Shown here: in pieces, positions 3,930-14,567 of the stretch
How positions within the stretch are numbered: the stretch's first letter is position 1
Layout: each line of letters opens with the position of its first letter
NCBI RefSeq assembly: GCF_028618695.1
Contig: NZ_JAQIVI010000630.1
Span: 1-17,414, forward strand
Origin: Natrinema soli
GTDB taxonomy: Archaea; Halobacteriota; Halobacteria; Halobacteriales; Natrialbaceae
Length of the DNA stretch: 17,414 nucleotides
Direction of reading: 5' to 3'
Notes under the pieces: model-generated
The model's database searches: none
What the model was told of the DNA's origin: nothing
Seen by the model: the letters and a program-made list of their open reading frames with translations, nothing else
Position numbers and translations under genes: made by a program

Positions 3930-4340
3930 CCACCGGGTCTACGATCGATCGGCAGATCGACAGGGCACGCGTGGGCGTCATTCCAGTCAACCACGATCCA
4001 CGCCTTCGCCGGTGGAACTCGCGTCGGGCGCATCTCGATGGTCGTGGTCGTTTCCGGGCGCGCGCACCGGACACCGCATTGCCGTGCGCATGACGTCAAG
4101 GACCGGCGCACCCGATCCGGTGGTTCGCTCGAAGACGTTCGCGGAAACAGTCGAGCAACTGCGTGACCGAACTTGACCGATGACTTCGAGGAGATGCCAG
4201 CGAGACCAACCGTCGTCCGAAACGGTTCTCATGCTCACGGATGGAAGCGAACGGGCAGGACGGACGGCGGAATGGTGGCTCGTCTTCACCGAGTCGCGAG
4301 AGGCGACGGTTCACCGCATCGACGTCCTCGACTGCCTCGA
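3930..4340. other. Intergenic stretch without a convincing gene
   Basis: Open frames exist on both strands here, but all look like Arg/Ser/Pro-rich shadows and none has a recognisable motif. The plus-strand frame that enters the transposase fragment at about 4350 is open back to 4180. Its first 55 residues do not match the second transposase copy in the window, so they may be fused non-transposase sequence. Confidence 0.5.
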
Positions 4341-4347
4341 CTCGGGC

Positions 4348-4740
4348 GTGATCGTTCAGCGATATGATAGCGAGCAGGGCTCGCACGCGATGCTGTTTCT
4401 GTACGTCCTCTCGACGAAAGGAGACGGCACAGCGGTCTTTGCGACGAATCTCTCAGTTGGGGCGGACGAGGCTGAGACGTTCTGTCGTCGGTACAGACGT
4501 CGCTGGCAGATCGAAAACGAATACAAGAGCATCAAGAACGACTTCTTGGCGAAGACGTCTTCCAAGGATTACCGAGTTCGACTCTTCTACTTCGTGTTCG
4601 CGGTGTTGCTGCATAACATCTGGCGGCTCACCGATTTCTTGTTGAAGGCTGGTGTCGACGGTGAGATGGACTACGCGCCAGTTATTACGGCTGGTGAATG
4701 CGTCGAGTTGGTTTGCTCAGCGTTACTTCCGTCGGATTAG
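4348..4740 (+). pseudogene. Transposase C-terminal fragment (IS4-superfamily type), copy 1
   Basis: About the last 125 residues of a DDE transposase. They align closely with the C-terminus of the transposase frame at 12969-14567: both have FLYV-STKGDG, VFATNL, WQIENEYKSIKNDFLAKTSS and FYFVFAVLL-NIWRLTDFLL. The YRRRWQIENEYKSIK segment carries the third catalytic acid with the Tyr-Arg-Glu-Lys pattern typical of IS4-superfamily transposases. The N-terminal two thirds, including both catalytic Asp residues, are missing. Unlike copy 2, this copy keeps the Tyr-Arg part of the motif (CRRYRRRW). The stop is TAG at 4738. It cannot be active and is a relic of an element similar to, but not identical with, copy 2. 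Confidence 0.85.
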
Positions 4741-5093
4741 CACTGGACATCGACTCGATCGCCCATTGAGAGTAGCGACGCTCTGCCAGAGGTCGAATTT
4801 TGAGCTGCTCTTGCTTACTTGACAAAATTAATCCGAGAGAGATAGCTGGATCATTCGAGCCACGATAAGCTCCGAAAACACGCGAAAATAGTTCATCCTC
4901 CGAAACTCTGGTAACCAGACAGTCCCAAAAATCGTATCGCGTTATATAGTTTATTCACACAGCACATATTATCGTCGGATTTCTCGTGGGTTACGCGGAC
5001 TCTCTCGCTCTGCTATACCTACACGAGAAACCGCCATAATATTGGCCAGTGCTCGGACTTCCTTGTAGCACAGCGGCTCTACTAATCAGAAGA
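4741..5093. other. Non-coding, AT-rich mobile-element debris
   Basis: No gene was seen. The stretch holds copy 1 of a dispersed 34-nt motif (4874-4907), an AT-rich patch around 4941-4970, and a perfect 9-bp inverted repeat, TTTCTCGTG at 4980-4988 and CACGAGAAA at 5022-5030, 33 nt apart. Confidence 0.6.
4874..4907 (+). repeat. Dispersed 34-nt motif, copy 1
   Basis: It begins GAAAACACGCGAAAATA and ends CCTCCGAAACT. By hand alignment it matches the copy at 10124-10157 at 29 of 34 positions. A more divergent copy lies on the opposite strand at 12783-12818. It stands 134 nt after the stop of the transposase fragment and may be an insertion-sequence end. Confidence 0.6.
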
Positions 5094-6293
5094 CTAGATG
5101 CCACCGTCGACATCTTCAAGCGCTTCTGCCGAGATATCACCGAGTTCACCGGCCTCGATATGTGAATATCGTTCGCGGACCATCTCTTCACTATTGTCGA
5201 GGTATCGTGCGGCCACCGTGTAACCGAACGCTCGAACCAGGATCTCTCCCATGCCTCACCGTCCACCATGGGGCGCAAGGTACTCGTGTTTTGGATGGTC
5301 AACATCAATGCCAGCGCGCCAGTTATCCGTCTCAGGACAGTTCGCGCTCCATCAGTCGTGAGCGACGGCGGCTGAATATCCTCATCTATCGCGAGGAGAA
5401 GATCACGGCATAGGAGCTTCGCTGTTCATCGATTTCTGCAGGTTTTAGACCACGATCTCCAGTTCTTCGCTGACGAGAGTGGCGAGTGTCCGTTGGTCGA
5501 ACGTCAGAAAGACTGGCCAACGCTCAGACAGTGGATCGAGGAGACGCTGATAGTTCCGGAGCGGTGAGATGACCGGGTCGGGAAGACTCACCGAGTCCCA
5601 CTGTTGGTTCTTCCGATAGACGTGCATACTCCCGTCCTCGTGATCGATCTCCTCCCACCGGACACCGCGCCGACGTGGATCGGCTGAATCTCGAAGGAGT
5701 TCACCAACTCGGACAGCTGTATAGGCGAGAACGCAGACTAGCGCTCGGTCACGAGCAGCTCTGAGTGCCGCGTATCGACCTCGCTCGCGTTCAAGCTGGT
5801 CGATGTCCTCCGGTAATCGTGTGAACTGTTCGATAGCAGTGCGCGCCACCTCGTCAACGTAGCCGGTAAGGGTGTGGCGCTGCTCGAGGGTCCATGACTG
5901 CTGATCTCCTGGCTTGCGGCCGTCATCCTCGGGGAGTGGTGAGGCCGCGCTGGCCCGCTGGGCGTATAGTGGGCTTCCAGATACCCCTCGTTGACGCACC
6001 AACCACACCACGCAGAGAGAGAGCGGTAATAGGTTTGTACAGTGTTCTGTTTAAGGCCTCGATCACCGGCGAGGTGTCGCGTACTCCCGAAACACGCGTT
6101 CGTCGAGGTCCTCGAAAGTCGGCTCTCGATCGACGCCGTCGGGGACGATCCCGGTCCAGTCATCGCGACCGCGGTCACCGGCGGCCCACTCGGCAAACCG
6201 CTCGAGTTCGCGAGCGGCGTTGCGTCGGTAGTTCCCGCCGTCGCCACCGCGGCCTTTTCCCTTGTCTTGGAGGTATCGCTCAAAGCTGTCGTC
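5094..6293 (-). pseudogene. Broken tyrosine recombinase/integrase
   Basis: Pieces in different minus-strand frames join into one haloarchaeal XerC/D-like integrase. The N-terminal SAM-like core-binding part reads DDSFERYLQDKGKGRGG and RRNAARELERFAEWAAGD (about 6293-6100), then EDLDERVFREYA. After a frameshift near 6085 comes RHLAGDRGLKQNTVQTYYRS to EGYLEAHY. A second shift near 5985 leads into the frame running to 5445, with the catalytic-Arg region TAVRVGELL. That frame stops with EELEIVV. Further debris (DLLLAIDEDIQPPSLTTDGA), then another frame, gives DVDHPKHEYLAPHGGR, an in-frame TGA, and the C-terminus FGYTVAARYLDNSEE and YSHIEAGEL with the presumed catalytic Tyr. At least three frameshifts and two stops make it inactive. 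It follows the PIN relic directly, as in a mobile module. Confidence 0.85.
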
Positions 6294-6296
6294 AAG

Positions 6297-6690
6297 AGAA
6301 CGACGTGGTCCGCCTCCCCGGCATCGAGCAGTTGCGCAGCGAGCCCAACAAGCGCCGTATCCGCTTTCTCGGTGGTATCCTCATCGCGGTCGGTCTCCTT
6401 GGCGATGAACCGGCGCACCTTGTCCATCACTGTCGAAACGAAGTGGATCGGTGTAGTTGAGCTCGTCGGCAACGACGATCCAACCCTCCTCGAATCCATC
6501 GGAATAGGAAGGTTTCCCGAGGGATACGCGTCCGCTGCAGGATCGCCCCCGAGTTCTGCGTAAACACGCTTCGGGATACGCAACGAGACCTTTGCCTGTC
6601 GAAGCGCCCGACGAAGCCGTTGGAATTTGTCCTTGTCCGGCCACCAAACCGTACAAAAACGCCGGTATCGGCGATATAGAACGTCGTCAT
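6297..6690 (-). pseudogene. Broken PIN-domain toxin-like gene
   Basis: Three frames are needed to read it. It starts with MTTFYIADTGVFVRFGG, where the early Asp fits the first PIN-domain metal ligand. A one-base slip then gives PDKDKFQRLRRALRQAK and RVYAELGGDPAADAYPSG, with the Glu of the second acidic position. Another shift gives GFEEGWIVVADELNYTDPL, and a last one leads to KADTALVGLAAQLLDAG with HVVLLTT, the usual PIN C-terminal pattern. PIN domains are Mg-dependent RNases, often VapC-like toxins. The ATG overlaps the upstream gene's TGA by 4 nt (ATGA), the classic arrangement of an antitoxin-toxin pair. Frameshifts make this copy non-functional. Confidence 0.75.
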
Positions 6691-7169
6691 GCAGCCGCAT
6701 CAGCGTATTCGATAGCAACCGGTTCCAGCGCTTGGAGGATAATTTCGGCTTCAAACGGTGAGAGGTCAAGTTCCTGGGCCGTAATCCGATGGTTGACCGT
6801 GCCGTCGACGTACTCGGTGGCGTACTCGAGGGCGACGGAAAGACCGTCGAGGCCGTGGCGCTCAATATAGACATCGATGTCCTCGTTCTCATCGCGGCGG
6901 GCAACCGCGGCGCTAAGTACCGGCGTGATCGTTTGGGTTTCGCCATCCGTCGAGAGCGTGAGTGCAATCGACTCGGCGTCGTATTCGTACGGGCGCTTTT
7001 CACGGGTTTCTCCACTAAGGAAGCTGTTTCGAGGTTCTGGACGTAGTCGTAGGCGCGGGGTATCGATCTCGTCGACGATCATTCGGAACCCACTCGGTAA
7101 CTGCAGAAAGACACCCTCTCTCAGCGGCTCTACCCCGGAGGAAGCGGCGTCGTGAAGCGGTTGCAACAT
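6687..7169 (-). CDS. Conserved-looking partner of the PIN gene, possible antitoxin
   Basis: A minus-strand frame of 160 residues from the ATG at 7169. I do not recognise a named family. The last 100 residues are clearly protein-like and acidic: EYDAESIALTLSTDGETQ, ARRDENEDIDVYIERHG, a long amphipathic stretch ending in a YVDGTVNHRITA motif, and SPFEAEIILQALEPVAIEY. The stop overlaps the PIN ATG by 4 nt, so the two were translationally coupled, and an antitoxin or toxin-regulating role is inferred from that alone. The first 60 residues (PRLRLRPEPRNS region) look less natural and may be out of their original frame, so the real gene could be shorter or 5'-damaged. The frame is open to 7253 across two hairpins, but translation through them is unlikely. 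Confidence 0.55.
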   Translation of the reverse strand: MLQPLHDAASSGVEPLREGVFLQLPSGFRMIVDEIDTPRLRLRPEPRNSFLSGETREKRPYEYDAESIALTLSTDGETQTITPVLSAAVARRDENEDIDVYIERHGLDGLSVALEYATEYVDGTVNHRITAQELDLSPFEAEIILQALEPVAIEYADAAA

Positions 7170-7177
7170 TCGTGCTT

Positions 7178-7194
7178 CCCCGACGGCGTCGGGG
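7178..7194. repeat. Perfect 7-bp hairpin
   Basis: CCCCGAC-GGC-GTCGGGG, preceded by GTGCTT and followed by TGCTTC. It lies 9 nt before the ATG of the possible antitoxin gene, so it would be in the mRNA leader if transcription starts upstream. It also resembles end hairpins of IS200/IS605-type elements. Confidence 0.6.
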
Positions 7195-7202
7195 TGCTTC
7201 AA

Positions 7203-7236
7203 AGTGGTCGTGATTATTGGGGTAATCACGACCACT
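7203..7236. repeat. Perfect 14-bp hairpin with 6-nt loop
   Basis: AGTGGTCGTGATTA at 7203-7216 and TAATCACGACCACT at 7223-7236 are exact reverse complements around the loop TTGGGG. It is the longest perfect palindrome noticed in the window. It stands 8 bp from the hairpin at 7178-7194 and marks the edge of the toxin-integrase module. It could be an operator, an RNA structure or a transposon end. Confidence 0.75.
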
Positions 7237-7315
7237 ACTGGAAGACGTGTCATATCCTACATTCTCACGATAGAAGGGTTCTACTCCCCAATCACCGAAC
7301 CTGAGTTGATAATAA

Positions 7316-10123: not shown

Positions 10124-10157
10124 GAAAATACGCTAAAATAATCCCTCCTCCGAAACT
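10124..10157 (+). repeat. Dispersed 34-nt motif, copy 2
   Basis: It begins GAAAATACGCTAAAATAAT and ends CCTCCGAAACT. It is 29/34 identical by hand to the copy at 4874-4907 and in the same orientation. There is no transposase gene next to it, so it would be a solo end or a short non-autonomous element. Confidence 0.6.
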
Positions 10158-10296: not shown

Positions 10297-10311
10297 GCCG
10301 CCGCAGGCGGC
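10297..10311. repeat. Small GC hairpin
   Basis: GCCGCC-GCA-GGCGGC, a perfect 6-bp stem within GAGCCGCCGCAGGCGGCGAG. It marks the end of the GC-rich sequence just before the AT-rich repeat arrays and may be a terminator or a mobile-element end. Confidence 0.35.
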
Positions 10312-10363
10312 GAGTCAACAGGGATAGTTCACCTTTCAGTCTTCGGTGTCCTTTCCCGCTATC

Positions 10364-10507
10364 AATAGGCATGGTCTGAATGATAGATACAATAGGGATA
10401 ATAGCTGGAATAGGTTCAATAGGCATAATAGTCGAAATTGGTGTAATAGACACAATGCATAAGGCAGCTACGATATGTGGACTATATGATACGGATGAAA
10501 TAGGTTA
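10364..10507 (+). repeat. AATAGNNNN array, block 1 (9-bp register)
   Basis: Sixteen consecutive 9-bp cells from 10364. AATAG opens the cells at 10364, 10391, 10400, 10409, 10418, 10427, 10445 and 10499. The cells at 10382 (GATAG), 10436 (AATTG) and 10454 (AATGC) are near matches. Even the isolated unit at 10499 keeps exact 9-bp phase with the first, 135 bp away. The last four bases of each cell vary, often beginning with G. This looks like a series of binding sites for a protein that packs every 9 bp, most likely the product of the gene downstream of parA. Confidence 0.85.
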
Positions 10508-10549
10508 GGTGCGATCAGATATTTGAGGAGAGCCTGATGCAGTCTGTGT

Positions 10550-10594
10550 GATAGATAGAATAGCCACAATCGGTAGCTGGCTACCAATAGGTGC
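10550..10594 (+). repeat. AATAGNNNN array, block 2
   Basis: Five 9-bp cells: GATAGATAG, AATAGCCAC, AATCGGTAG, CTGGCTACC, AATAGGTGC. The orientation is that of block 1, but the phase is shifted relative to it. The block is followed directly by the first inverted CTATT core at 10595. Confidence 0.75.
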
Positions 10595-10604
10595 CTATTT
10601 AAAC

Positions 10605-10685
10605 TAATCTACTCCAGCTATCCCACCTATTGTGGCTATTGTAGCTAGTAATGCTATTCCATCTGGCGTGGCTACTCTATCTACC
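10605..10685 (-). repeat. NNNNCTATT array, block 3 (inverted orientation)
   Basis: Nine 9-bp cells ending at positions matching CTATT or close variants (CTACT, CTATC, CTAGT, CTACC). Perfect cores are at 10627, 10636 and 10654. The unit is the reverse complement of blocks 1 and 2, so array polarity flips between 10594 and 10605. Confidence 0.8.
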
Positions 10686-10736
10686 GTCTCTTGAGTCGCC
10701 CTCACCAATCGGTGTATAACTCCTATAATAGGTTCC

Positions 10737-10826
10737 TAAACTAGCTTTCCTATTGATCCTATTATTCCTATTCTACCTATTGTTTCTACCCTATTTATTG
10801 TAGCTACCTCTCCTATTTCACCTCGA
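10737..10826 (-). repeat. NNNNCTATT array, block 4 (inverted orientation)
   Basis: Ten 9-bp cells. Four successive cells are perfect (TTTCCTATT, GATCCTATT, ATTCCTATT, CTACCTATT at 10746-10781). Next come GTTTCTACC, CTATTTATT, GTAGCTACC and TCTCCTATT. The palindrome CCTATAATAGG at 10722-10732 just before the block joins the two orientations in one site. Confidence 0.85.
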
Positions 10827-10835
10827 GTAGGTAGA

Positions 10836-10843
10836 GTTAATAT
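10836..10843 (+). promoter_or_regulatory. Possible TATA element of the parA operon
   Basis: TTAATATG within GAGTTAATATGATGG is the best AT-rich candidate between the arrays. It would place a start of transcription near 10865-10870 and give a leader of about 70 nt that includes array block 5, a set-up suited to autoregulation by the array-binding protein. Confidence 0.3.
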
Positions 10844-10874
10844 GATGGAGTAGAATGTATTCTTCGCCAGCTGA

Positions 10875-10910
10875 AATAGGAGATATCCGAATAATAGGAG
10901 CCTATTCTGG
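10875..10910 (+). repeat. AATAGNNNN array, block 5, at the parA promoter
   Basis: Four 9-bp cells: AATAGGAGA, TATCCGAAT, AATAGGAGC, CTATTCTGG. They restore the forward orientation and end 26 bp before the parA ATG. A protein bound here would cover the parA leader or promoter. Confidence 0.7.
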
Positions 10911-10936
10911 CTCGCCTATGGCAGGTACATCCAATA

Positions 10937-11827
10937 ATGACCGATACAACGACCGAGTCACGTGCCGTAAGCGTGGTTATTTTGAAAGGTGGCGTCGGCA
11001 AATCAACGACTTCGATGAATCTCGCGCGCCAGCTTGTAGAGCGCGGACGAACCCTCTACGCTGATCTCGATCCGAACGGTCACGCAACGAACGGCCTCGG
11101 TTTCGAAGCGGCCTACCACGGTGAGATCAATCTCGGTGACGTCATTCTCGAGGGCAATGCGACGCCCCATGACTTGATTCGACCGACGGATCATGGCTTC
11201 GACCTCCTTCCGTCCTCGAACACACTCGAGGATGTCGAAAAGGACCTTGCGGGTGCGATGCAGGGCTCGGCTCGGATCAAATCGAAGATCGTCGATCCGT
11301 TACTCGGTGACGAGTATGACTTCATCGTTTTCGACTGCCCGGCGTACCCGGGAATGCTCAACAACAACGCTCTCGTTGCGACGGGGAACGTCGTGATCCC
11401 GATCGAACCGGGCTCGAGTGCGATCGGCGGCTACAAACGAACGATGGAACGGTTGATCGAACCGGCTCGGGAGTACATCGACGTCGACGTCCTCGCTGTC
11501 GTTCCGAACAAGCTGTCCGATCGGATCGACCAACAGACCGAAGATCGGGAGCTACTCGAGAACCTGAATACTGCGACCTACGAGGTGAATCCAGAGCAAT
11601 CGTTACAGGAGGCGATCCCAAACTTCGCTCGGATTACGGCCAACGAGTTCGACGCGATTGACGCCGGCGAGATAACTCCCCCGAAACCCGGTATCCGTCA
11701 CCGATCGGCGCTGTCGCGATCACTGCAGCATAATCAACCGTTGCAGGATTACGACCCGGAGAACGATCAGATCGACTTCTACGAGGAACTCGCCGAAATA
11801 GTTGCCGTCGGAGGGGTCGAACGATGA
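10937..11827 (+). CDS. parA: ParA-family partition ATPase
   Basis: 296 residues. It has the deviant Walker A box KGGVGKST at residues 17-24, with the signature Lys17 and phosphate-binding Lys22. Switch-like YADLDPNGHAT is at 41-51 and Walker B DFIVFDCPAYPG at 128-139. ParA proteins bind DNA non-specifically as ATP dimers and move plasmid copies apart when a centromere-bound partner stimulates hydrolysis. The N-terminus is short, with no helix-turn-helix domain, so this is a small type Ib-like ParA/Soj/SegA form and does not itself carry a sequence-specific DNA-binding domain. The C-terminal RHRSALSRSL region is basic and may contact DNA. The ATG at 10937 fits the family start. Its TGA overlaps the ATG of the next gene by 4 nt, so the two are coupled. 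The operon is bracketed by AATAG arrays, the presumed centromere. Confidence 0.93.
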   Translation: MTDTTTESRAVSVVILKGGVGKSTTSMNLARQLVERGRTLYADLDPNGHATNGLGFEAAYHGEINLGDVILEGNATPHDLIRPTDHGFDLLPSSNTLEDVEKDLAGAMQGSARIKSKIVDPLLGDEYDFIVFDCPAYPGMLNNNALVATGNVVIPIEPGSSAIGGYKRTMERLIEPAREYIDVDVLAVVPNKLSDRIDQQTEDRELLENLNTATYEVNPEQSLQEAIPNFARITANEFDAIDAGEITPPKPGIRHRSALSRSLQHNQPLQDYDPENDQIDFYEELAEIVAVGGVER

Positions 11828-12285
11828 GTAATCCGTTCGACGATCTCAAAGAAGACGAGACGGACACATCCGAGTCGGAAGATTCGATCGACTCCGAGTC
11901 ACGAACTGACTCGAAGCGAACTGACGAACAACCGTCGGTAGCGGAGTCCGCTGCCTCGAGTATACACGATTCGTCACCATCAGAGACGTCCGTGGAGGGA
12001 GAGAGCGCTGACGCAACCTCGGACGAACCGCTATCGCCTGCAGAGACGGGACCGGCGTTCGAGTATAGTGAAGTGAAACAGAAGCCGTTCTACGCACGCA
12101 CCGAGACGGTGAACCAATTCGAAAATGAGATTCGGATGACGATCGTTCCGAAACTCGCCGAGGCTGGGCTGCTCGACGAAGAGACACGCGAAATTCACGA
12201 TGCGGTCCTCCGCCTCGCAAACGAGCAGCCGGAACGGATCGCAGAACTCGTCCTCGAGGAACGACGACAGTCAGGGAGTCAGTGA
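11824..12285 (+). CDS. Small ParA-partner protein, candidate centromere-binding adaptor
   Basis: 153 residues in two parts. Residues 1-80 are acidic, Ser/Thr-rich and of low complexity, almost certainly disordered. Residues 86-148 are compact: KPFYARTETVNQFENEIR, then VPKLAEAGLLDEETREIHDA, then LANEQPERIAELVLEER. The pattern of a short strand (PFYAR) followed by helices is compatible with a ribbon-helix-helix-like or small helical DNA-binding dimer. I infer this; no motif proves it. Position is the strongest argument: it overlaps parA by 4 nt, where ParB, ParR, omega or SegB-type adaptors are encoded. It would bind the flanking AATAGNNNN arrays and stimulate ParA. An acidic rather than basic N-terminus is unlike most bacterial adaptors, though acidity is general in haloarchaea. 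Confidence 0.8.
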   Translation: MSNPFDDLKEDETDTSESEDSIDSESRTDSKRTDEQPSVAESAASSIHDSSPSETSVEGESADATSDEPLSPAETGPAFEYSEVKQKPFYARTETVNQFENEIRMTIVPKLAEAGLLDEETREIHDAVLRLANEQPERIAELVLEERRQSGSQ

Positions 12286-12309
12286 GTTCGTTGTGGCCTT
12301 ATTTCTGAT

Positions 12310-12337
12310 CTCTTCGGCGCTGATCTGAGAACTTTTT
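12310..12337 (+). terminator. Possible terminator after the parA operon
   Basis: A weak dyad with GATC ends (12308-12325) is followed by CTTTTTCT at 12332-12339, about 50 bp after the operon's stop. T-rich tracts suffice for archaeal termination, so this is plausible but not strong. Confidence 0.3.
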
Positions 12338-12417
12338 CTACGCTCTCGTAGTGATCGGTTGGATCTCGAGCGATATTAGGTTTGCAAGAGGGGGATTCTC
12401 ATGCCCTCTCTGCGAAG

Positions 12418-12561
12418 AATAGGTACCTAAGGTTCAATAGGGTGCGTGGACAACCTCGGTGAAACGAATACAATAGGACGGATAGGTGAAATAGGAGGAA
12501 TGGGGATAATAGGACAGGTAAGTACAATAGTTAGAATAGCTCAGGTATTTGGAATAGGTAG
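12418..12561 (+). repeat. AATAGNNNN array, block 6, downstream of the operon
   Basis: Sixteen 9-bp cells in one register. AATAG opens the cells at 12418, 12436, 12472, 12490, 12508, 12526, 12535 and 12553, with GATAG at 12481 and AATGG at 12499. The length (144 bp) and orientation equal those of block 1. Together the arrays enclose parA and its partner gene on both sides. Confidence 0.85.
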
Positions 12562-12762
12562 TACAGGTATACTTTAGGGAAAGAAACAGGAGGTGAATCG
12601 CCTTGACCTAATGCTCCGAAGTTGACCGACCTACAATAGAGTTCGCTCTGTGACTTCGAATGGGCTAATCCACGAAGCAGGCGTGACTAGCTGACTGCAC
12701 ATCCAGCGTTCACGGAACGATGTCTCTATCAATCTATAAACCAACTTTCGATATATGATTCT
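12562..12762. other. Non-coding stretch between array and inverted-repeat element
   Basis: No gene was seen. An isolated ACAATAGAG at 12633-12641 recurs at 14585-14593, on the other side of the transposase relic. Confidence 0.5.
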
Positions 12763-12833
12763 GGGGCACTGAGGTCCCCCACAGTTTCGGAGGGCAGGCT
12801 AGTTTTGGTCAGATTTTCGGCATTCAGTGCCCC
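12763..12833. mobile_element. 71-bp element with perfect 10-bp terminal inverted repeats
   Basis: GGGGCACTGA at 12763-12772 and TCAGTGCCCC at 12824-12833 are exact reverse complements. The 51 bp between them contain the divergent third copy of the dispersed motif (minus strand, 12783-12818). ATTC occurs close to both outer edges. The structure fits a miniature non-autonomous element or an insertion-sequence end, but a large RNA hairpin is also possible. Confidence 0.5.
12783..12818 (-). repeat. Dispersed motif, divergent copy 3
   Basis: On the minus strand it begins GAAAAT and ends CCCTCCGAAACT, sharing both ends with the copies at 4874 and 10124 but with a diverged middle. It lies about 150 nt after the stop of the transposase frame, comparable to the 134 nt seen at copy 1. 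Confidence 0.4.
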
Positions 12834-12968
12834 TATTCATCAATCAATGGCTTAATTCGTGCGTTCTTTGTCATAAAGACCGGAAACGCGTGAGAAAATA
12901 CGTGTATTTTGGCACTGCTAAATAGGGTTGTCACTCCTAAACAGCGGACTCAGCGAGTGCTCAGCCGG

Positions 12969-14567
12969 TCAGTCGGGTGGAATCAACGCTGAGACGACGA
13001 TCTCGACACATTCACCCGCGGTCAACACGGTCGCATAGTCCATTTCACCGTCAACACCAGCTTTCAGTAAGAAGTCGGTGAGTCGCCAGATATTGTACAG
13101 CAGCACCGCAAACACGAAGTAGAACAGCCGAACCAGATAGTCCTTCGACGAGGTCTTCGCGAGAAAGTCATTCTTGATGGATTTGTATTCGTTTTCGATC
13201 TGCCAGCGACGGCAGAACGTTTCGGCCTCGTTCGGCCTGACTCGAAGATTCGTCGCGAAAACGGTCATCCCATCCCCCTTGGTTGAGGGTACATACAGAA
13301 AATGCATTGAGTGTCTCCCCTCCTCAACGTGAGCGGACGCTGATTCCACAGCGACATCTTGCCCGGCAGCCTCCATCGTCTCGATTACTTCCCGCTCAGT
13401 ACTGTTGATTCGCTTTGGGATGAGGTAGTTCATCCCGAGATTCGACAGTGTCTGGAACACCTGCTGAGAATCGAATTCCCAGTCACAGAGTATCGTCTCG
13501 ATAGGGACACGTTCCTTTGCTCGCTTCACCAGTCGTCGGACGACGCGGTGAATCTGGTTCGGTGGATTCTCGTCCCAGGCTGAGCTCTCTCGGATCGGCT
13601 CCACACCGAGTACGAGCGGGACGTTCTGGCCGATGATCGACACCGTCGCGAATTTGAACGCTCGGCCCTTCCCATCTTTTGTCCAACTGATCATCGACAT
13701 CCCCTCGACATCACCGTAGTACGGCACGGTCGTAATGTCAATAGCGGCTGTTACCGGCCGGCGAAACGACGCTTCAGATTCGCTGAGCGAAAGAAGGCGG
13801 TCGGTCGCCTCATCGAATCCTTCGATGAGTGTCTTCAGGTCAAACTGCTTGATCGCCCGGAGATGAGTATCCCCGTGCGGACCGTAGTCGTTCCCACGCC
13901 GATATTGGAAGCGGGCTGCGCCCTGTGGCGTCCCACAGCTGACCATCCCCGTGAACGTTTCCAACTCGAGGAATTGCGTGTCCTCATATGTAGCATTCGC
14001 GGCCCGACCCGAATCGAACTCGTTGAAGCCGTGGTCCCGTGCGAGGCGTGTGGTTCGGTGGATTTGTTCGTCAGTGGATCCTCGACCAACTGCCTCGTCG
14101 TCCTTGGTAGAACGATTCTCATTGTCGACAACCTCGCTTTTCGGCCGGACAGCAGGAGCTGATAACTCCCAGTCGTGGACCTCTTTGACGACGAAGTGAG
14201 CAGTACTTCGAATGAACTCTCGAACACCGTCGTCGAAGCGATTGCGTCATGTTCGAGACAGCACGGATTCATCAGGGATGTGATCCAGCTCGAACGGTTC
14301 GGCAAGTTCTTGATACTGAGCCAAAGCTCGATAGCTCTCTCCCGTAATCTCTCGGTAGATGAGGAGTCGAATCATCCCGAGAAACGAGTCCGGAGCGGGG
14401 TGCCACTCCGGATAGCTATCATCGAGATATTCGGTTCGAATCGTACTCTTAGCGATGCTCGATGGCAGCGAGTTGCCTGCTTGAAACTGTTAAGTGATTT
14501 CGATTCCCGTGCAGGTGTCGGTCATTCGGCAGGCACGGTCCGAGAGCGAGTCCATCGAGTCCTTCAT
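12969..14567 (-). pseudogene. Near-complete DDE transposase frame with two in-frame stops, copy 2
   Basis: A single minus-strand frame of 533 codons runs from an ATG at 14567 to a TGA at 12969 with no frameshift, broken by TAA at 14492-14490 and TGA at 14249-14247. The N-terminal part includes YPEWHPAPDSFLGMIRLLIY, a tract resembling transposase DNA-binding helices, and IPDESVLSRT just before the TGA, where a Trp codon is likely lost. The DDE core follows: AIDITTVPYYGD (first Asp), ILCDWEFDS (second Asp) and CRRWQIENEYKSIKNDFLA (Glu). It belongs with IS4-superfamily haloarchaeal elements; I do not assign a specific IS name. Next to the catalytic Glu it lacks four residues present in copy 1, including the Tyr of the Y-R-E-K motif. 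The piece from 13964 (TTG) down could be translated but would lack the N-terminal domain. Confidence 0.85.

Follow-up and report, generated by a model that had tools for sequence, protein, structure and literature searches.

A parA operon bracketed by arrays of a 9-bp unit

We analysed a 17,414-nt contig of the haloarchaeon Natrinema soli (NZ_JAQIVI010000630.1, the whole of which is called the window here). It carries a gene for a ParA-type ATPase, an overlapping gene for a small partner protein and, on both sides of this operon, arrays of a short repeat with the core AATAG (CTATT on the opposite strand). The features of the region are:

10364..10503, forward strand: upstream array block 1, 8 AATAG cores in a single 9-bp register, all at phase 5 mod 9
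10559..10599, both orientations: block 2, two forward cores and one reverse core, with a terminal palindromic pair AATAGGTGCCTATT at 10586-10599
10627..10658, reverse strand: block 3, three reverse cores, the first lying 41 bp (5 mod 9) past the last forward core of block 2
10727..10817, both orientations: block 4, one forward and six reverse cores, one register holding 5 of the 6 reverse cores
10830..10840, forward strand: GGTAGAGTTAA box, 107 bp before the parA ATG, putative promoter element
10875..10906, no strand assigned: core at 10875 and palindromic pair AATAGGAGCCTATT (10893-10906), the pair starting 44 bp before the parA ATG, putative operator
10937..11827, forward strand: parA, 296 residues, deviant Walker A motif KGGVGKST, AAA_31 match over residues 9-172 (3.4e-29)
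11824..12285, forward strand: partner gene, 153 residues, overlapping parA by 4 bp; NPFDDL tail tip, acidic linker and C-terminal helical domain
12418..12557, forward strand: downstream array in inverted orientation to block 4, its 8 cores all forward and sharing a single 9-bp register

A first-pass annotation of this DNA had counted about thirty AATAG cores in two stretches, and the count is borne out. The upstream stretch (10364-10910), which is AT-rich, holds 24 cores, 13 AATAG and 11 CTATT, compared with a mean of 2.8 and a maximum of 8 in 1000 dinucleotide shuffles. The downstream stretch (12410-12565) holds 8, compared with a mean of 0.8 and a maximum of 5 in as many shuffles, and 13 more are found in the remainder of the window. 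Autocorrelation, the check proposed in that annotation, shows enrichment over 300 shuffles in both arrays, with z scores at lags 9, 18 and 27 of 8.2, 7.9 and 5.9 upstream and 4.4, 4.7 and 5.6 downstream. For the comparison stretch 11000-12200 the z score at lag 9 is 1.9 and the top lag is 15 (z 3.6); at 12600-12960 no lag-9 signal is observed (z -0.3, 300 shuffles).

The strict 9-bp register claimed within blocks is evident from the core phases as well as from the dominance of lags 9, 18 and 27: a single register is common to all 8 cores in 10364-10499 and likewise to all 8 in 12418-12553. The further claim, that phase is regained even by isolated units 100 bp or more away, was overstated. The register is kept within blocks, but the phase (mod 9) of the upstream region shifts from block to block (5, 2, 7, 8, 4, 3), and the core at 10791 is off phase within block 4. 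Scored with the unit defined below, block 1 reaches 33.2 at 10382, compared with 9.8 for the window's reversed control, and the downstream array reaches 24.5 at 12481. A 56-nt inverted pair (10768-10823 and 12484-12539, 71%) links the block 4 region to the downstream array. Tandem Repeats Finder, tried as an array caller, broke the arrays into short rows and was set aside.

The repeat unit and its geometry

Pooled over 302 AATAG sites from 33 loci, the window included, the four positions past the core favour G, T, R and C (0.68, 0.67, 0.32 and 0.19 bits), which gives the unit AATAGGTRC. The AATAG positions are fixed by the search word. The bases before the core echo the preceding unit. The unit given earlier, AATAGNNNN, understates this, a preference being seen over the full 9-mer.

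Same-strand core pairs 5-58 bp apart are spaced by a multiple of 9 in 206 of 239 cases, a spacing of 18 being as frequent as one of 9 (61 versus 54 pairs). Among 104 convergent pairs, in which the cores face each other, 69 lie at 5 mod 9 and 28 at 0 mod 9, indicating that arrays of opposite orientation keep preferred offsets. The strict palindromic pair AATAGNNNNCTATT is present in 17 of the 33 loci. The strict word AATAGGTNNAATAGG gave 12 matches in 15 genomes, compared with 0 for the control, with a match in just 6 of the 15. With AATAGNNNNAATAG as a genome probe, 7 of 9 matches in G001 and 9 of 11 in G002 fall on the contig of the cognate parA; used alone it is a weak probe (4 matches versus 7 in the control for G003, 4 versus 4 for G004) and was not retained. 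Upstream of parA on Natrialba magadii pNMAG02 (locus L134), a very strong lag 9 is accompanied by lags 41 and 23. The 5 mod 9 facing offset of the window's group may recur there with a different core.

Arrays accompany homologous parA genes

One genome scan yielded 33 loci; all but one have a ParA of nearly full length. The close set comprises 35 loci. L033 (an 18-residue match), L136 (a partner match with no adjacent annotated parA) and L137 (the same place as L040) do not enter any count, and L138-L140 were used solely for the two-strain word comparison below. In close loci, AATAG cores cluster upstream of parA at spacings of 9, 18 and 27. In 34 of the 35 loci the in-register unit score upstream of parA is above the maximum reached by 35 reversed-sequence controls (14.75); L025 ties at 14.8. 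The array expected beside homologous haloarchaeal parA operons is thus found by unit score in 34 of 35. A megablast search with 10300-12700 returned just 4 plasmid records (80-83%). Their matches begin at 10796 or later; they take in no more than 141 bp before parA, then parA itself and the beginning of the partner gene, and leave the main arrays outside. That the main arrays are unmatched although parA is well conserved indicates that the array sequence turns over while the pattern stays. On comparative evidence, the assignment of the arrays to this ParA and its partner is strongly supported.

Raw lag-9 ranking was rejected as proof. Lag 9 is the top-ranking period in every one of the 35 close loci and in 11 of the 15 distant ones, yet also in 22.6% of 3,144 control windows, since coding DNA has period 3; the raw score passes the 99th control percentile in 7 of 35 close and 5 of 15 distant loci, against a control that contained the replicons' own par arrays. 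A codon-corrected contrast, the lag-9 signal minus that at other multiples of 3, was compared with 3,113 control windows from which known par and satellite arrays were excluded. All 35 close loci lie above the 95th percentile, 31 above the 99th and 28 above the 99.9th, and 11 of 16 distant loci lie above the 99th. For the best-200-bp variant, the loci above the 95th percentile number 34 of the 35 close and 11 of the 16 distant ones. L036 was tested on the stretch after the operon, as its record starts 171 bp before parA. The 9-bp period proposed from the window alone holds for most of the family examined.

The five distant loci that fall short are L037, L126, L127, L128 and L131. All but L131 have AATAG cores in register that span the annotated parA start. 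There the 200-bp contrast, for a stretch chosen after the fact, is 0.124, 0.032, 0.084 and 0.086, respectively, and three of the four exceed the 99th percentile of the best-200-bp controls (0.075). These loci belong to a pNRC100-like clade in which the 9-bp array extends into the 5' end of parA as annotated, where each unit takes up three codons and the protein has repeats like NSxNSxDR; in L038 the array lies just upstream. From the sequences, either the parA start is annotated too early in this clade or the centromere would be translated. L131 is Natronorubrum bangense plasmid unnamed1, whose ParA (KGGFGKS) and partner are divergent.

When replicons or large contigs were scanned at lags 9, 18 and 27, the highest block lay at parA in 6 of 7. 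The par block and the next block have z scores of 4.6 and 4.3 on pHTUR02, a narrow lead, 5.4 and 3.8 on the Halorussus plasmid, 7.9 and 3.8 on the N. daqingense plasmid, 6.8 and 5.6 on the N. texcoconense contig, and 6.7 and 4.7 on pHcu_235. On pNRC100 the par block (9.6) is followed by a second copy (9.2) and then by a block at 5.4. The exception is the H. salina contig, whose par array (4.9) comes second to a satellite array (5.8).

The word drifts while the period stays

The core word differs between subfamilies: AATAGGTRC in the window's group, GAATAGC-like on pNRC100, CAGTAGACA-like on pHcu_235, TAAGGTAGC-like in L129, CCTNAGGTA in L135 and GCTACCTNA in L134. These words were read from outputs rather than derived by a single fitting method; when 9-column motifs were fitted automatically to single loci, most profiles came out soft, and the approach was kept for L135 only. 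The unit of the window's group is not clearly prominent on pNRC100 (12.8, control 15.5), pHcu_235 (15.0, control 14.0) or the Halorussus plasmid (18.8, outlying control 24.5), each of which has its own 9-bp array of another word.

Plasmids of one strain can differ in the same way. There are 6 AATAGG and 1 GAATAG on pHTUR02, and 0 and 10 on the co-resident pHTUR03; in N. thermotolerans, unnamed6 has 7 AATAGG and unnamed1 none. The comparison covers two strains, and the word differs in both, which is what incompatibility avoidance would require. In the partner alignment, a strand-like stretch of the type QxPxYAR has residues that vary between word groups, suggesting a link between these residues and the array word.

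ParA and its partner

The window has 62 listed open reading frames (ORFs) of at least 80 residues, 10 of which were scanned against protein families. The parA product matches PHROG phrog_164 (ParA-like, 4.1e-42), and its closest solved relatives by sequence are ParA/Soj-type proteins, with delta' lower in the ranking. Its ATPase domain begins at residue 9, leaving no room for an N-terminal DNA-binding domain. The deviant Walker A motif and the lack of such a domain are as in type Ib ParA proteins.

The partner also has the type Ib gene layout: it is small, encoded directly downstream of parA and free of a ParB/Spo0J domain. No family was assigned to it in Pfam, NCBIfam or PHROGs at E 0.01, and none of these scans revealed the ParB domain expected of a type Ia ParABS system, whose ParB partner has a helix-turn-helix and CTPase domain. 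A protein search with the partner listed 90 proteins, one of them from the window, and each carries PF25925 as its precomputed label; this family is absent from the local Pfam scan output of the partner even at E 1. Plasmid searches gave 96 records for the partner (E at most 0.01) and 141 for ParA (at most 1e-20), all haloarchaeal among the matches listed (60 of 96 and 60 of 141). A profile search of PDB sequences with the partner yielded no credible match, its 5 rows all having E values of 0.011 or higher.

In 63 close and middling relatives the tail tip NPFDDL hardly varies, N3, P4, F5, D7 and L8 being invariant. Past the tip lie a variable acidic linker and then the C-terminal helical domain. 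In a wider set of 23 partners, [N/D]PFxDL occurs in 15 and FDDL without that N/D in 5 more; the exceptions are L132 and L133, which have FAGL, and L134, which has neither form. The arginine finger of type Ib partners has no counterpart among the 63 sequences, in which no Arg or Lys before residue 92 is invariant or nearly so. Lys and Arg are absent from the first 30 residues in 13 of the 23 aligned partners; the window's partner has two (K9 and R27). In low-confidence monomer models, the tail, with its conserved tip, has low predicted confidence and is disordered-like, and the C-terminal part shows a strand-like QxPxYAR followed by predicted helices 93-113, 119-134 and 136-151. A ribbon-helix-helix DNA-binding domain, as in the C-terminus of type Ib partners, is a possible reading of this part, for which the models gave no fold match. 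The models being poor and meaningful PDB matches lacking, we infer the DNA-binding role of the partner, a putative centromere-binding protein, purely from position and comparison.

A putative operator and a putative promoter box before parA

The palindromic pair before parA recurs at a near-fixed distance. It starts at -35 to -49 from the parA ATG in 25 of the 35 close loci, 17 with a strict and 8 with a near pair (start codons picked by script). The box GGTAGARTTAA has 9 exact matches in 140 loci, all about 100-112 bp before the parA ATG. They represent 8 independent loci (L002, L005, L006, L008, L010, L020, L026 and L034), L111 being the L002 site. The box is present in the window too and is probably a promoter element.

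Downstream and satellite arrays

The first-pass annotation had found arrays on both sides of the operon worthy of note. The downstream array is real in the window but uncommon in close relatives, an array within 1.4 kb after parA being found in 3 of 35 (the window, L026 and L030). A further array lies elsewhere in the fetched flanks in 9 of 35 (L001, L002, L003, L006, L007, L027, L032, L034 and, marginally, L019). In the pNRC100-like L037, L038, L126, L127 and L128, short arrays with 3 to 5 cores each by reading follow right after the operon, and the post-operon 200-bp contrasts there are low (-0.019 to 0.049).

By unit scan, 3 of 4 cognate replicons carry satellite arrays. These lie at 271351, 288092 and 385337 on pHTUR02 (scores 28.0-29.5, control 14.8), at 100564 and 330446 on the N. 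texcoconense contig (38.2 and 31.2, control 13.0), and at 128922, 176967 and 274583 on the H. salina contig (34.5-37.0, control 14.2). The unit scan of the N. daqingense plasmid gave no satellite, the next score being 12.2. Six of the 8 satellites are about 100 kb or more from par; those at 385337 and 274583 are within 4 kb. Two pHTUR02 satellites viewed with annotation fall between listed genes, the gene table being incomplete.

A plan resembling type Ib partition

The first-pass annotation had suggested a new centromere type, which goes too far. The components are those of the bacterial type Ib plan with another unit length: an array upstream, made of units in both orientations; a ParA that lacks an N-terminal DNA-binding domain; a small partner; and a site just before parA. 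The direct and inverted repeats upstream of the operon were themselves seen. We do not claim membership of type Ib, given the low-confidence fold of the partner and a tail without a conserved arginine; the system differs from type Ib in the length of its unit, in the tip of the partner tail, in having arrays that are dispersed and shifted in phase, and in being archaeal.

The pSM19035 delta/omega system likewise combines a ParA and a small partner with short non-palindromic tandem units, direct and inverted, that overlap the par promoters and occupy several separate sites per plasmid (PMC9499535, PMC5016525). The unit here is 9 bp, unlike the 7-bp heptads of pSM19035, and unrelated in sequence; parA and the partner gene form one overlapping operon in an archaeal host; the arrays are interrupted and phase-shifted, in contrast to 7-10 consecutive units there; and the partner tail has no conserved Arg or Lys. 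The repeats of TP228 are about 8 bp long. TP228 ParF/ParG (parH, OF) resembles the present system in its short direct and inverted upstream repeats, its flexible partner tail and the additional regulatory repeats between centromere and genes (PMC5016525). It differs in repeat length and sequence, and the ParG tail has an arginine finger. The repeats of pCXC100 from Leifsonia are reportedly about 9 bp, and one study is said to concern direct repeats upstream of parAB in Deinococcus. The type Ib ParB system of pCXC100 uses direct repeats as its centromere (PMC5016525); it is bacterial and has direct repeats only.

Among archaeal systems, SegAB of Sulfolobales and Euryarchaeota shares a ParA-like ATPase, an overlapping partner gene and upstream sites. 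Its SegB sites, unlike the 9-bp-register arrays here, are imperfect palindromes (13-bp motif) dispersed on the chromosome (PMC12284271). The ParA/ParB/AspA system of pNOB8 also serves ParA partition on an archaeal plasmid (PMC9178275); it has three proteins with AspA as centromere binder, in contrast to two here. Background is given in archaeal reviews (PMC5120986, PMC7617429, PMC9178275) and a survey (PMC4158269). Among the literature matches listed, none had a title or abstract dealing with such 9-bp arrays beside par genes of haloarchaea, although absence from print is not thereby established.

Arrays as a probable centromere and operator

The arrays, their register and unit, their link to parA and the partner across haloarchaea, the position of the palindromic pair and the satellites were all computed directly. 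We consider it highly probable that the arrays are the centromere and operator of a ParA/small-partner system working like bacterial type Ib partition. Reasoning from known ParA systems, the arrays would be the binding sites of the partner encoded right after parA. Partner molecules would pack side by side on the 9-bp units, in either orientation, into a nucleoprotein filament that serves as the plasmid centromere. The flexible acidic tail, via its conserved NPFDDL tip, would engage nucleoid-bound ParA-ATP, and segregation would follow as plasmid copies are moved apart. Binding of the partner at the palindromic pair 44 bp before parA would repress the operon. The earlier proposal that the arrays are the centromere of this ParA and its partner stands as far as the link to the pair is concerned, which comparison backs; binding by the partner is argued from analogy.

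Several results weigh against this interpretation. The unit was learned on 33 of the 35 scored loci, which makes the unit-score test partly circular, and the loci are related, so that counts are not independent. Shuffle z scores at lag 9 are low in L015 (1.6), L126 (1.9), L127 (0.1), L128 (1.0) and L131 (0.9). L126 is also weak in the 200-bp contrast, its 0.032 falling short of the 95th percentile of the controls (0.056), and L131 has no 9-bp array detectable by codon-corrected contrast, parA-start reading or 200-bp contrast. The reversed control of the Halorussus plasmid, an outlier, reached 24.5, which is also the score of the downstream array of the window, although the window's control does not exceed 9.8. 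The AlphaFold models of the partner are poor (predicted local distance difference test 64.6 and 63.0, predicted template modelling score 0.27), and no meaningful PDB match was found by sequence or fold (Foldseek/VIA; two chance rows).

The arrays could instead be replication-origin iterons for Orc1/Cdc6 or Rep, with a place near parA that reflects the joint movement of origin and par genes. In favour of this, the region of the arrays is AT-rich, and orc1/cdc6 is annotated in the fetched parA flanks of 6 of 21 plasmid par loci viewed with annotation (pHTUR02, Halorussus pelagicus, pNRC100, pHcu_235 and two Haloferax plasmids). In the other 15 no orc gene lies within 3-8 kb (the plasmid gene table is incomplete and the record end cuts three), and the family scans of 10 window ORFs identified no orc or rep gene, in a contig of only 17.4 kb where origin recognition box (ORB) elements were not searched for. 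Haloarchaeal origin boxes have been sought as 20-40-bp motifs with a G-string, not as 9-bp units (PMC3528665). As the place of the array relative to parA is also constant, and most satellites are remote from par, we regard an origin as improbable.

Equally improbable in our judgement is a role as autoregulatory operator or small-regulon sites without a centromere. The palindromic pair at near-fixed distance, the GGTAGARTTAA box of the 8 independent loci and the known repressor function of type Ib partners (PMC5016525) would all suit such sites. However, 24 cores over about 500 bp plus satellites about 100 kb away are more than one operator needs, and the two roles coexist in omega (PMC9499535). 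Neutral short tandem repeats from slippage, which low G+C content and tandem arrangement might suggest, are very improbable: the units are diverged, occur in both orientations at preferred phase offsets and are spaced by 18 no more rarely than by 9, whole-replicon scans rank par loci and a few satellites top, strict AATAGGTNNAATAGG exceeds its control, and conservation across genera largely contradicts this origin.

A wider proposal can be made, tentatively and with a little less than even confidence. The loci would form a haloarchaea-wide partition family in which the 9-bp packing period is fixed and the word drifts across subfamilies and co-resident plasmids, providing ready-made orthogonal centromeres. 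The partner would meet ParA by an acidic tail with an FxDL-type tip rather than by an arginine finger, and the pNRC100-like centromere would enter the annotated parA frame, each unit there spanning three codons. If it is true that the period is fixed while the word drifts, packing geometry would be more constrained than base recognition, and this could help predict plasmid compatibility. The sharing-out of plasmids and megaplasmids at division of polyploid haloarchaea is little studied, and a candidate cis site, partner gene, unit and likely operator are now named across many plasmids, including the classic pNRC100.

Other features of the window

Two ISH3-like transposase genes (4180-4740 and 12969-13964) lie in inverted orientation, one of them truncated, with 240-nt arms that are 80% complementary. 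The sequence CCTCCGAAACT occurs three times, at 4897, 10147 and 12783; the par module lies between the copies at 10147 and 12783, which are in inverted orientation. Three occurrences were reached by 3 of 200 shuffles (at most 1 mismatch), and the copies are possibly insertion-sequence ends. At 5445-6011 and 6687-7253 the window encodes a tyrosine-recombinase-like ORF (weak match, 0.0013) and a DUF7437 protein.

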